This document shows, one piece after another, positions 13,553-17,551 of a stretch of 64,000 bases of DNA; the first letter of the stretch is position 1, and each line of letters starts with the position of its first letter. The translations under genes and the position numbers were made by a program. The stretch comes from Cycloclasticus pugetii PS-1 (GTDB taxonomy: Bacteria > Pseudomonadota > Gammaproteobacteria > Methylococcales > Cycloclasticaceae), in NCBI RefSeq assembly GCF_000384415.1, contig NZ_ARVU01000001.1, forward strand, positions 434,001 through 498,000. The letters are read 5' to 3'. The notes beneath the pieces were generated by a model that was not told the DNA's origin, searched no databases, and worked only from the letters and a program-made list of their open reading frames with translations.

Positions 13553-14029
13553 ATGTTGCAGATATCAACCCGTGAGGGCGAACGCCCTGAAACGACTAAT
13601 ACTAATCCGCATGAGCAATTAACGCAAAACCCAAGTGTTGAATGCCATCAATTATTTAAAGAGAAATTATTTCATTTTGATAAGGTGAGTCGTCGTCCGA
13701 GTATTATTTCTGTGCCCGGTGCTGAAGCGCTATGGCTAGAAGAAGGTGAGCCATGTAATTGTACGAATGGGTTTATGATCGAGCGAGAATTTGCACATAT
13801 TCATCCGGCGTATGATGGTAGTCTACATATGGCGCTATCCGAAGAAGATTTTAAAACAGTGATTGATAAACAATGGGGTGAACGACACCCATTAGCAGGT
13901 AAGGGGCCTATTCCAGAAACCATAGCGCTCGTTTATGCGCCAAGAGATATAGAAGAAATAGATACCGTCATGAAGATCGTAAATGCGTCATTGAAGAACG
14001 CTAAAACAACAAAGGGGACAGCATTATGA
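13553..14029 (+). CDS. luciferase-domain (DUF5519-like) protein
   Basis: This is a 158-residue soluble protein. The core REFAHIHPAYDGSLHMAL, then GERHPLAG and IALVYAPRDIEE, resembles the 'luciferase' domain family (DUF5519), which is common as an uncharacterised companion gene in bacteria and fungi. Light emission is not implied. The N-terminal 40 residues are polar and variable. It overlaps the aromatic-acid transporter start by four bases (ATGA), so the two are translationally coupled. That suggests a role linked to uptake or handling of the transporter's substrate, which is inference only. Confidence 0.55.
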   Translation: MLQISTREGERPETTNTNPHEQLTQNPSVECHQLFKEKLFHFDKVSRRPSIISVPGAEALWLEEGEPCNCTNGFMIEREFAHIHPAYDGSLHMALSEEDFKTVIDKQWGERHPLAGKGPIPETIALVYAPRDIEEIDTVMKIVNASLKNAKTTKGTAL

Positions 14030-15354
14030 ATCAAAAACCATTAGATATGAGCGCTATTATCGAAGAAAACCCGCTAGGTAAATTTCAGCAATTAGTGATG
14101 CTTTTTTGTGCCTTGATCATTATTTTTGATGGTTTTGACGTGTTAGCCATCGCGTTTGCTGCGCCAGACCTTAGTAAGGCGTTAGAGATAGCTAACAGCG
14201 ACTTGGGTTATGTCTTTGCGGCAGGGTTGTTCGGTATGATGTTGGGGGCATTAATATTAGGCCCGGTTGGCGATAAGTTTGGCCGTCGTAATGCGGTTAT
14301 TTCCAGCGTTTGTATGTTTGGTTTGTGTACCTTGTTGACGGGTTTTATAGAAACCTATAACGAACTTGTATTGTTGCGTTTCCTCACCGGTCTTGGACTT
14401 GGTGGTGCTTTGCCAAATGCTATGGCATTGATGACTGAATATGTATCAACACGGTATAGAAACATTGCCATAGCAGTGATATTTCTGGGCATGCCGATTG
14501 GTGGTATAAGCGGCGGAATAATTGCTTCAGAAATTATTCCGGCTTATGGTTGGGCGTCATTGTTCTACGTAGGTGGAGTTTTGCCCCTGCTATTGGTTCC
14601 CGTGTTAATTCTATATTTACCTGAGTCACCTCGGTTTTTAGTGGAGCATGATAACGATAATGATAAGTTGCTTTGTAAGATTGCCCAAAAAATAGAGAGT
14701 AGGCGAGAGGTTCCATCTAACAGCGTGTTTTATCATCACCCAGTGGAAAAGCACTTTCCTGTTAAGGCGTTATTTATGGAAAGAAGGCAGGCAGACACCT
14801 TGTTAATATGGGTGGTCTTTTTCTTTAATTTACTGGTGGCTTATTTCCTATATAGCTGGATTCCAACGCTACTGGTTGAGGCGGGCTATCAGCTAAGTGA
14901 AGCTACAAAAACAGTCATTGTTTTAAATATTGGCGGTGCCATCTCGCCTTTTATTTTAGCTAAATTTATATCTTACTGGGGCTCTAAGAGGGTCTTGGTG
15001 GTTTGTTTTGTATTGGCTGGGTTCAGTATGATGGCTGTAGGCCAATTTGGTTCATCGATTAATATGGTGATGATTTTGTCCTTCTTTGCTGGCTTTTTTG
15101 TTGTGGGTGGGCAGGTCAGTTTGAATGCACTGAGCAGCTATATGTACCCAACACATATTCGTTCTACTGGGGTAGGTTGGGCCTTAGGCATTGGACGGAT
15201 CGGGTCTATTGTCGGTCCGTTATTAGCGGGTGCTTTAGTCGCCGCATCGTTTGGTTTAGATGTGAACTTTATTGTGTTTGGTTCGTTCTGTTTTGTCACG
15301 GCAACAGCACTTTTCTTTATTAAAAACCACGAAAAAGTGCAAGATAAGTCTTGA
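14026..15354 (+). CDS. MFS transporter, aromatic acid:H+ symporter family
   Basis: This is a 442-residue protein with twelve predicted membrane segments. TM1 carries IIFDGFDVLAIAFAAPDL, the DGFD motif that marks the AAHS group (PcaK, BenK, VanK). The TM2-3 loop reads GPVGDKFGRRNAV and the motif-B region reads RFLTGLGLGGALPNAMAL. These proteins import benzoate, 4-hydroxybenzoate, protocatechuate or vanillate with protons. The exact substrate is not predictable. It is coupled to the upstream luciferase-domain gene. Its stop codon lies within the -35 region of the hsp20 promoter. Confidence 0.85.
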   Translation: MNQKPLDMSAIIEENPLGKFQQLVMLFCALIIIFDGFDVLAIAFAAPDLSKALEIANSDLGYVFAAGLFGMMLGALILGPVGDKFGRRNAVISSVCMFGLCTLLTGFIETYNELVLLRFLTGLGLGGALPNAMALMTEYVSTRYRNIAIAVIFLGMPIGGISGGIIASEIIPAYGWASLFYVGGVLPLLLVPVLILYLPESPRFLVEHDNDNDKLLCKIAQKIESRREVPSNSVFYHHPVEKHFPVKALFMERRQADTLLIWVVFFFNLLVAYFLYSWIPTLLVEAGYQLSEATKTVIVLNIGGAISPFILAKFISYWGSKRVLVVCFVLAGFSMMAVGQFGSSINMVMILSFFAGFFVVGGQVSLNALSSYMYPTHIRSTGVGWALGIGRIGSIVGPLLAGALVAASFGLDVNFIVFGSFCFVTATALFFIKNHEKVQDKS

Positions 15355-15405
15355 AAAAATGTTCATGCCTCCCTATTTAAATACTGTAAACAACTTAAAT
15401 AGGAG
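15350..15405 (+). promoter_or_regulatory. sigma32-like promoter overlapping an SD-masking inverted repeat (hsp20 leader)
   Basis: CTTGAAA at 15350-15356 matches the heat-shock sigma factor -35. After 13 bases, TCCCTATT at 15370-15377 resembles its -10 (CCCCATNT). The -10 segment is also the left arm of an inverted repeat: 15369-15380 can pair with 15395-15405, with one bulged C and a 14-base loop. The right arm contains the AGGAG Shine-Dalgarno of the Hsp20 gene. Only transcripts begun upstream of 15369 would carry the left arm. Confidence 0.55.
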
Positions 15406-15412
15406 AATTGAT

Positions 15413-15850
15413 ATGGCAATTGCAAGATATGAACCATGGAACCTTTTAGGGCGTTATGGAAACGATTTAAGTCGCAGGTTTTCAGATGATGAAGACAGTG
15501 TTTCTTCAACATCAACTTGGACACCAGCAGTGGATATTAAAGAAGAAGATGATCGCTTTGTTCTTCACGCTGATGTGCCGGGTGTAGACCCACACGAGAT
15601 TGATGTGACAATGGAGGATGGCATTTTAACCGTACGAGGTGAACGTTCTAGTGAATCAAAAGAAGAGAAAGATGGCTATAAACGTGTAGAGCGTTTCAAT
15701 GGTACTTTTTATCGACGTTTTGTATTACCCGATACAACCGATGAAAATAAAGTGAGCGCAAATTATGAAAAAGGTGTTCTTGAATTAATAATTCCAAAGA
15801 AGCCGGCGGTATTGCCAAAACGTATAAAGGTTAATGATAAAGATAATTAA
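15413..15850 (+). CDS. small heat shock protein, Hsp20/alpha-crystallin family
   Basis: This 145-residue holdase chaperone binds unfolding proteins as large oligomers in the cytoplasm. A short N-terminal arm is followed by the alpha-crystallin domain (about residues 42-135) with VDIKEEDDRFVLHADVPGV, DGILTVRGER and the signature ANYEKGVLELIIPK. The C-terminal tail has a LPKRIKV anchor (IxI-like). ATG 15413 follows AGGAG by eight bases. The frame is open far upstream into the transporter gene, but that sequence is not part of the family. A terminator follows at 15873. Confidence 0.93.
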   Translation: MAIARYEPWNLLGRYGNDLSRRFSDDEDSVSSTSTWTPAVDIKEEDDRFVLHADVPGVDPHEIDVTMEDGILTVRGERSSESKEEKDGYKRVERFNGTFYRRFVLPDTTDENKVSANYEKGVLELIIPKKPAVLPKRIKVNDKDN

Positions 15851-15872
15851 ATGACATAGTCTTATGTTAACA

Positions 15873-15896
15873 ACGGGGCCTTGGCCCCGTTTTTTT
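15873..15896 (+). terminator. rho-independent terminator after hsp20
   Basis: The stem ACGGGGCC at 15873-15880 pairs with GGCCCCGT at 15883-15890, closed by a very short loop and followed by a run of T to 15896. It lies 23 bases after the Hsp20 stop codon. Confidence 0.85.
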
Positions 15897-15957: not shown

Positions 15958-16926
15958 ATGGGTATTAAAAAATTGACATCTCTTACCGATAATGATGTTA
16001 CTCCGAAGGCTGATTTTGATAAAAGTCGTGCACTCATATCCGCTTCTCGACGACAATTTCTAACGCGTAGTTCAGGATTTATGGTAGCGGGTGCTTTAGC
16101 GCCTGATGCCTTATGGGCTGGTAATAAAATTGAAAATTATGTGACTAGCCAGTTTTCATTGAAAGAAAAACTAACACCTTATGAATATGTGACCGGCTAC
16201 AATAATTTTTATGAATTTGGGACAGCAAAGAGCGACCCAGCATTAAGAGCACATCTATTGAAAACAAAACCTTGGAGCTTAACAATTGAAGGCGAGGTGG
16301 CTAAACCAGGAGTTTACAATTTAGAAGATATTCTTAAGCAGCAACAACTCGAAGAGCGTATTTATCGCCTACGATGTGTAGAGGCATGGTCAATGGTGGT
16401 GCCATGGATTGGCTTTTCATTAGCTGAATTGATTAGGCAGATGGAACCCACGTCAAAAGCGAAATATGTTGAATTTACAACGCTGTATGATCCTAAGCAA
16501 ATGCCAGGGCAAAAAAGCCGTATTCTAAAATGGCCATATGTAGAAGGGTTACGAATGGACGAAGCAATGAACCCGCTTTCACTGATGGCCACCGGTTTGT
16601 ATGGTGAAGAAATGCCCAATCAAAACGGTGCACCGTTGCGCTTAATAGTGCCTTGGAAATATGGTTTTAAGAGTATTAAATCGATCGTCAAAATTAAATT
16701 TACAGAACAGATGCCCAAAACATCATGGAATGAATCAGCAAAAAATGAATATGGCTTTTACGCTAATGTTAACCCGGATGTTCCTCATCCAAGATGGAGT
16801 CAACGTAGAGAAAGGGTGATTGGCGCGTCATTGTTTACGCCCAAGCGTGATACCGAACTATTCAATGGTTATGGTGAGCACGTGGCTTATTTGTATAAAG
16901 GGATGAACCTTCGCCAGTTTTTTTAA
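15958..16926 (+). CDS. msrP: protein-methionine-sulfoxide reductase catalytic subunit MsrP
   Basis: MsrP (formerly YedY) is a periplasmic molybdopterin enzyme that repairs oxidised methionines in envelope proteins, with electrons from MsrQ. At 322 residues it is full length. The Tat signal is SRRQFLTRSSGFMVAGALAP, with cleavage expected after ALWAG. The Mo-ligating Cys is in YRLRCVEAWSMVVPWIGF, and VPWKYGFKSIKSIVKI is a family landmark. The ATG at 15958 follows an AAGGA-type site and gives the usual N-terminus before the Tat motif. It lies 16 bases before msrQ. Confidence 0.95.
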   Translation: MGIKKLTSLTDNDVTPKADFDKSRALISASRRQFLTRSSGFMVAGALAPDALWAGNKIENYVTSQFSLKEKLTPYEYVTGYNNFYEFGTAKSDPALRAHLLKTKPWSLTIEGEVAKPGVYNLEDILKQQQLEERIYRLRCVEAWSMVVPWIGFSLAELIRQMEPTSKAKYVEFTTLYDPKQMPGQKSRILKWPYVEGLRMDEAMNPLSLMATGLYGEEMPNQNGAPLRLIVPWKYGFKSIKSIVKIKFTEQMPKTSWNESAKNEYGFYANVNPDVPHPRWSQRRERVIGASLFTPKRDTELFNGYGEHVAYLYKGMNLRQFF

Positions 16927-16942
16927 AAAAACTATAATTAAA

Positions 16943-17551
16943 ATGCTAAGAAAGAAAGCTTCAAAACAGCAGATAAGGCTATTAAAAACGATAGTTTTTA
17001 ATACCTGCTTAATTCCATTTTTATTGATTATATGGGATGGGTTTAATGATTTATTAGGCGCTGATCCAATCAAGACCTTGCATGTTAGAACAGGAGATTG
17101 GGCGTTAAGGTTTTTATTAATTACCTTGCTAATGTCACCACTACAACGGGCATTTAACGTTTCTTTGCCAATACGTTTTCGACGAATGTTTGGTTTATTT
17201 GCGTTCTTTTATGCCAGTTTGCACCTGGCTGTTTGGCTGGTTTTAGATCAATCATTAAGGGTTGAGCATATGCTAGAGGATATACCAGAAAGCCCGTACA
17301 TTATGCTGGGCTTGTTGGCCTACTTAATGCTAATACCACTTGCGATAACCTCCACCAAAGGCATGATGCGTCGGTTGGGTAAGCGCTGGGTTGAGTTACA
17401 TAGAAGCCTTTATTTGATAGCGGTAATGGGTGTTGTACATTTCTTTTGGTTAACAAAACTAGATGATACAGAACCATTTATTTACGCTGTCTTGTTAGCA
17501 GTCTTATTATTATTTCGTTACTTAACGAATAAAAAAATTAATAAGCTTTAA
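16943..17551 (+). CDS. msrQ: protein-methionine-sulfoxide reductase heme-binding subunit MsrQ
   Basis: This is a 202-residue inner-membrane cytochrome b partner of MsrP (formerly YedZ), with about six hydrophobic segments. It passes electrons from the quinone pool or a flavin reductase to MsrP in the periplasm. Family landmarks are TGDWALRFLLITLLMSPL, FRRMFGLFAFFYASLHLAVW (heme-ligand His) and LGKRWVELHRSLYLIAVMGVVHFFW (further His ligands). Position directly after msrP confirms the assignment. Confidence 0.95.
   Translation: MLRKKASKQQIRLLKTIVFNTCLIPFLLIIWDGFNDLLGADPIKTLHVRTGDWALRFLLITLLMSPLQRAFNVSLPIRFRRMFGLFAFFYASLHLAVWLVLDQSLRVEHMLEDIPESPYIMLGLLAYLMLIPLAITSTKGMMRRLGKRWVELHRSLYLIAVMGVVHFFWLTKLDDTEPFIYAVLLAVLLLFRYLTNKKINKL

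Follow-up and report, generated by a model that had tools for sequence, protein, structure and literature searches.

The -10 element of the hsp20 heat-shock promoter in Cycloclasticus pugetii PS-1 probably doubles as an RNA lock on the Shine-Dalgarno (SD) sequence of the same gene in read-through transcripts, which would insulate hsp20 translation. At the DNA level, nucleotides 15371-15378 would serve as the -10 element. At the RNA level, and only when transcription comes from the transporter gene upstream, the same bases would pair with the hsp20 SD and lock it. Transcripts of the heat-shock promoter would start past the left arm of this hairpin and have a free SD. The predicted outcome is that heat-shock transcripts yield hsp20 protein, and transcripts that run in from an upstream gene expressed for unrelated reasons do not.

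A wider reading, which we hold more tentatively, is that in this gammaproteobacterial order the hsp20 -10 element has been reshaped (CCCC to CTCC or CCCT, together with its flanks) into an anti-Shine-Dalgarno sequence that is a promoter in DNA and a lock in RNA. Such an element may recur irrespective of the kind of gene upstream, would tend to be absent with a divergent neighbour, and could be a general means of insulating a stress gene that sits in another's operon.

The hsp20 locus and its promoter

The window is the whole 64,000-nucleotide stretch analysed here, from the 2.38-Mb genome of a member of a genus of marine hydrocarbon degraders. The features relevant to the argument are as follows.

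13553..14029, + strand: gene for a 158-aa protein with a PF17648 "Luciferase domain" match, likely the first gene of the upstream operon
14026..15354, + strand: MFS transporter gene, stop codon TGA at 15352-15354; the nearest model is aromatic acid/H+ symport
15350..15356, + strand: sigma32-type -35 element CTTGAAA, read from the sequence and seen in relatives; overlaps the transporter stop codon
15370..15380, + strand: hairpin left arm from the fold; the perfect part, CCTATTTAA (15372-15380), lies largely in the -10 element and runs two bases past it
15371..15378, + strand: sigma32-type -10 element CCCTATTT, read from the sequence and also present in relatives
15383..15387, + strand: expected sigma32 transcription start region, placed by spacing; 15385 is assumed in calculations
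15395..15406, + strand: hairpin right arm from the fold, with the perfect part TTAAATAGG at 15395-15403; contains the SD
15401..15405, + strand: Shine-Dalgarno sequence AGGAG, read from the sequence
15413..15850, + strand: hsp20, 145 aa (PF00011, 86.7 bits)
15872..15891, + strand: terminator-like hairpin after hsp20, with an 8-bp stem, six G-C pairs and a T tract

The stop codon of the PF17648 gene overlaps the transporter ATG, and its product (13553-14029) has no NCBIfam match. The transporter, which scores 398.1 bits against TIGR00895 (slightly below the cut-off of 418.55), is supposed to be the origin of the read-through mRNA. No terminator-like site was found between its stop codon (15354) and the hsp20 ATG (15413), and there is no room for an intrinsic terminator because the -35 box overlaps the stop codon. 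A search of the + strand from 13000 to hsp20 found no sigma70-like promoter, so that no promoter for the read-through mRNA was identified in this interval. Rfam models at gathering score detect two tRNAs and nothing else in the 64-kb window. The methionine sulfoxide reductase genes msrP and msrQ follow at 15958-17551, downstream of hsp20 and its terminator-like hairpin.

This hsp20 gene is the sole PF00011 match in the genome. Within the family of Cycloclasticus an hsp20 match occurs in only 6 of 18 genomes, and four of the genomes lacking one are 98-100% complete.

The consensus sigma32 promoter is CTTGAAA / CCCCATNT. It is given as NNCTTGAA-N(13-18)-CNCCATAT in the available part of PMC3669281. 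Both elements ahead of hsp20 agree with the consensus, their 14-nt spacer is within the allowed range, and the genome encodes RpoH (TIGR02392, 382.8 bits; cut-off 323.1). The promoter pattern has five matches genome-wide, versus none for a reversed control pattern. The heat-shock promoter that the preliminary description had placed ahead of hsp20 is thus borne out as a sigma32-type site at 15350-15356 and 15371-15378, and we infer that sigma32 uses it.

A hairpin over the Shine-Dalgarno sequence

The segments CCTATTTAA and TTAAATAGG form nine perfect pairs around a loop of 14. In the computed fold the stem continues past a bulged A15404 with the pairs C15371-G15405 and T15370-A15406. Of the AGGAG sequence, AGG lies in the right arm and the final G in the stem extension. 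A left arm had originally been placed at 15369-15380 and equated with the -10 element. That placement is accurate to one to three bases, and the two do coincide, with the arm running 2 nt beyond the octamer, so that a promoter element lies within the 5' strand of an SD-masking hairpin. This anatomy also fits the earlier suggestion that promoter and hairpin exclude each other. The left arm is upstream of the expected start, and a transcript begun at least five bases past the -10 element therefore cannot contain it.

The 47-nt fold has an energy of -7.8 kcal/mol versus -2.96 ± 1.68 for shuffled sequences (3/200 as low), and a 103-nt fold is unremarkable (z = -1.46; 16/200 shuffles as low). No stable structure is predicted for the 59 nt from 15384 onward (-2.1 kcal/mol, z = +1.40). 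In the modelled short transcript the openness of the SD is 0.69 or 0.37, depending on the length of coding sequence that is folded.

The promoter with its overlapping SD hairpin is confirmed as a real observation. It could still be a by-product of its parts, since a C-rich sigma32 -10 element and a purine-rich SD about 30 nt apart are partly complementary and an A/T-rich leader might add the rest, with no function at all. When the 21 bases between the fixed promoter and SD are shuffled, 1.7% of the leaders pair as well as the native one (698/40,000), and a 9-bp stem is reached in 609/40,000. We compared 75 genes with a recognisable SD, taken from the window and from a further ten 20-kb stretches and two small loci of this genome. 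Among them hsp20 alone has a perfect stem of more than 6 bp over its SD, and it ranks fifth, behind four others, for predicted SD unmasking. Taken alone, the hairpin is a 1-2% coincidence and a single suggestive case, and the argument consequently rests on relatives.

The preliminary description offered an RNA thermometer as a fallback, in which a longer transcript carries the hairpin and heat melts it to open hsp20 translation. Small heat-shock genes can carry such elements, for example the ROSE-like leaders of Pseudomonas ibpA described in the accessible sections of PMC3669281. At the C. pugetii gene, however, the SD in the modelled long RNA is 0.15-0.19 free from 4 to 65 °C and the hairpin stays shut, with no melting at physiological temperatures. 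The left arm falls within the -10 element and not inside the expected heat-shock transcript, and no sigma70-like promoter was found just upstream on the + strand. No curated family fits either: Rfam at gathering score has no match in 20 hsp20 loci, and a lax scan of 161 bases around the hairpin returned four matches, all below gathering score and none of them a thermometer. On these models a thermometer at this gene is unlikely, and we give it a small probability.

Still less probable is a DNA operator, in which the inverted repeat overlapping the -10 element would be a repressor site. The position and symmetry of the repeat would suit such a role. However, a repeat with these 8-bp arms is found once genome-wide, and in relatives the sequence and spacing of the arms vary and the pairing is kept. 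Neither the recurrence nor the conserved sequence and spacing of a repressor operator was therefore seen.

Pairing between the -10 element and the SD in relatives

Relatives of hsp20 were drawn from overlapping sets of 61 genomes (43 with a match), 18 genomes of the family (6), 311 genomes of the order (125 with a match, E 1e-35; five partial matches left out) and 42 genome_contigs loci. Upstream regions were compared at 159 loci, after omission of duplicates of the window and relatives (L001, L074, L032-L034), sequences that are not hsp20 (L075-L078), a locus with 43 bases upstream (L050) and an archaeal one (L073). A loose scan run with no shuffled control reports a sigma32-like promoter before hsp20 in 146 of the 159, and a few of these calls, with leaders of 10-11 nt, are surely false. 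The pairing set excludes the 13 loci with no promoter match and 15 with a leader of <22 or >75 nt or no SD. It comprises a short-leader class (67 loci, up to 46 nt) and a long-leader class (64 loci, 47-75 nt), which similarity reduction brought to 41 and 29 representatives. Loci are called "same order" if they come from the searches of the 61 genomes and of the order; the 12 other representatives are from genome_contigs.

In the 41 short-leader representatives, the -10 region pairs with the SD region of its own locus at -8.16 kcal/mol, versus -6.99 ± 0.28 when partners are swapped, and 1/20,000 permutations, which ignore the tree, do as well (0/20,000 in a repeat). Swapping within GC classes gives 23/20,000 (three classes) and 69/20,000 (five classes), so GC content accounts for part of this advantage and not all of it. 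The advantage holds with CTCC loci removed (102/20,000, n = 31) and is less clear within them (836/20,000, n = 10). There is no effect in control windows taken from the spacer (6119/20,000) or further up (3456/20,000), in the 29 long-leader representatives (3545/20,000), or in the 12 genome_contigs representatives (8932/20,000). In 20 other sigma32 genes, own pairs are slightly worse than swapped ones (18535/20,000). That set derives from 22 searched genomes, in which 52 promoter-like sites with an ORF were found. N-terminal sequence assigned 33 of these to heat-shock genes (presumably DnaK, HtpG, ClpB, HtpX, DegP-like, GrpE, FtsH and GroES), and capping the leader at 60 nt and discarding near-duplicates left 20.

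Swaps within a genus are weak and point the same way: 32/720 for Cycloclasticus, 902/40,320 for genus g6, 4/24 for g17 and 168/720 for g4. The four non-redundant Cycloclasticus loci that carry the transporter give 2/24 permutations. One right-arm base of L004 has changed with no compensation, and its left arm reaches -14.5 with the right arm of the window versus -10.2 with its own.

Covariation extends beyond the motif itself. The flanks were compared in 13 non-redundant loci with the -10 element CTCCATAT (CTCC), after three near-duplicates had been dropped from 16. The three bases 5' of the motif can pair with the three after GGAG in 28/39 cases versus 22.9 ± 1.8 (15/5,000), and counting Watson-Crick pairs only, in 22 versus 14.6 (28/5,000). 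Exchanges of C-G for T-A, of G-C for A-T, and among T-A, C-G and G-C occur. The three inner positions are uninformative here, as their left bases are invariant.

The CTCC form is itself characteristic of hsp20 in two families. In f5 and f6 it occurs at hsp20 in 10 of 11 genomes and at 0 of 16 sites of other recognised heat-shock genes, all 16 of which have CCCC; f6 has another CTCC site, G042:C66, to which no recognised gene belongs. These hsp20 orthologues share ancestry, so that CTCC in 10 genomes does not represent 10 independent events. With f4 genomes included, the counts become 15 of 16 versus 1 of 20, and we restrict the tally to f5 and f6 because the five f4 genomes were chosen after CTCC had been noticed there. 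A second hsp20-like gene at L187, L240 and L217 has an apparent sigma32 promoter, a leader of 28-31 nt and a plain CCCC -10 element.

Taken together, the swap tests and the flank covariation indicate that arm pairing survives sequence change in a good share of the relatives. Loss of this pairing had been named at the outset as grounds for abandoning the idea. The conservation goes beyond what the motifs alone demand, with exceptions in genus g4, at single loci and in the 12 genome_contigs representatives. The by-product explanation is in keeping with the lack of effect in those 12 representatives of the wider scan and with the lack of strong pairing in g4. Against it, the swaps retain the motifs and own pairs are favoured all the same, own pairs have a slight disadvantage in other sigma32 genes that carry these motifs, and the covariation lies outside the motif. 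We regard it as rather unlikely, if appreciably less so than a thermometer.

A lock directed at read-through should matter only behind a co-directional gene. The 46 same-order short-leader loci divide into 41 with a co-directional neighbour (>250 nt away in three cases) and 5 with a divergent one, by hand assignments that for L004 and L164 run contrary to the coding score. The median pairing is -9.4 kcal/mol for the 41 versus -3.3 for the 5 (p = 0.011). The difference persists when collapsed by genus (17 versus 4, p = 0.018) and is weaker when measured as excess over swapped left arms (p = 0.025; p = 0.06 by genus). The six Cycloclasticus loci all have msrP downstream, and five have the transporter upstream. 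Pairing at these five is -10.6 to -5.8, and at L005, where greB replaces the transporter, it is -2.2. An hsp20 protein tree of 10 sequences puts L005 between L004 and L006/L007 (support 74 and 53), in which case the transporter loss would be secondary; a tree of the six msrP sequences does not settle the placement. Some loci depart from the trend. Six loci of g4 behind a co-directional gene pair weakly (-2.0 to -5.2), as do L094, L159 and L167 despite co-directional neighbours, and L151 reaches -8.5 despite a divergent, distant one.

The genes upstream of hsp20 are of diverse kinds. A co-directional gene that we take, from its C-terminal sequence, to be purL-like precedes hsp20 at L008, L021, L030, L086, L094, L100, L131, L147, L155, L164 and L167-L169. 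On the same assumption, a gloA-like gene is upstream in 8 of 10 genus g6 loci (L022-L029). A hairpin for processing or stability of the transporter-hsp20 mRNA, with no part in translation, would explain why the structure closely follows the transporter stop codon. This role seems highly improbable, because the covariation concentrates at and beside the SD and the pairing recurs behind unrelated upstream genes.

Folding of whole transcripts shows the effect less strongly. In the short class (29 same-order representatives), the sigma32 transcript is predicted to leave the SD more accessible than read-through RNA does, with a median difference of 0.12 (Wilcoxon p = 0.007). In the long class (19 same-order) the difference is 0.03 (p = 0.18). 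The SD is freed by >0.2 in 11/29 short-leader versus 4/19 long-leader representatives, and this difference between the classes is not significant (p = 0.24). Masking is not predicted for L006 and L007. Full-fold unmasking is a noisy measure, and the argument is therefore based on swap-controlled duplex energies of fixed segments.

Comparison with known systems

The proposed arrangement resembles that of phage T4 gene e, as far as anatomy and conservation can be compared from sequence. As related in the available part of a review (PMC3014915), long early transcripts of gene e fold over the ribosome site, and late promoters lie within the DNA of the hairpin 5' strand; soc, 49 and I-TevI are named there with gene e. 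Long gene e transcripts with both strands are poorly translated, and short ones, which come from promoters immediately upstream of the ribosome site and lack the 5' strand, are translated well (same part of PMC3014915), and we propose that hsp20 transcripts behave alike. In T4 the promoters are phage late promoters, the control concerns the timing of lysis, and a 100-fold effect has been demonstrated experimentally (PMC3014915, same part). The hsp20 case differs in that it involves a cellular sigma32-type promoter, a chaperone gene and arms that differ between lineages, and in that the evidence for it is sequence-based.

IS10 is protected from outside transcription in a related way, as read-through mRNA folds over the start site and mRNA from its own promoter does not. 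The folding of read-through RNA is common to both models, whereas IS10 encodes a mobile-element transposase and has no link to stress. The available portions of PMC4265352 and PMC8450116 contain no useful passage on read-through folding of transposase mRNA. A limited literature search with little coverage of subscription journals turned up no heat-shock gene described with such an arrangement, which is weak negative evidence; the mechanism itself is already known from T4 gene e.

If the lock operates as proposed, a heat-shock gene could close a house-keeping or catabolic operon without leaking and would need neither a terminator nor an additional regulator, since its own promoter would supply the lock. 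The arrangement would then be a cellular equivalent of the phage trick, spread across a lineage. A deviant -10 element could then be selected as RNA, RNA-seq signal over such genes need not equal protein, and covariation between -10 elements and SDs would be predicted at other internal promoters.

Pseudomonas ibpA is similar to the hsp20 case in being a small heat-shock gene with a sigma32 promoter and an SD paired in a hairpin. According to the accessible sections of PMC3669281, both arms of the ibpA structure are inside a sigma32 leader of 61-62 nt and respond to temperature, whereas the hsp20 left arm is upstream of the expected start. Among hsp20 genes with leaders of 47-75 nt, the predicted accessibility of the SD within the sigma32 transcript itself is lower than in the short class (median 0.27 for 19 loci versus 0.40 for 29, p = 0.003). 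Examples are L010, L012, L014, L019, L102, L107, L111, L120 and L140. An Rfam scan of 14 long-leader loci returned no match, and on these modelled folds it is possible that such loci are undescribed RNA thermometers.
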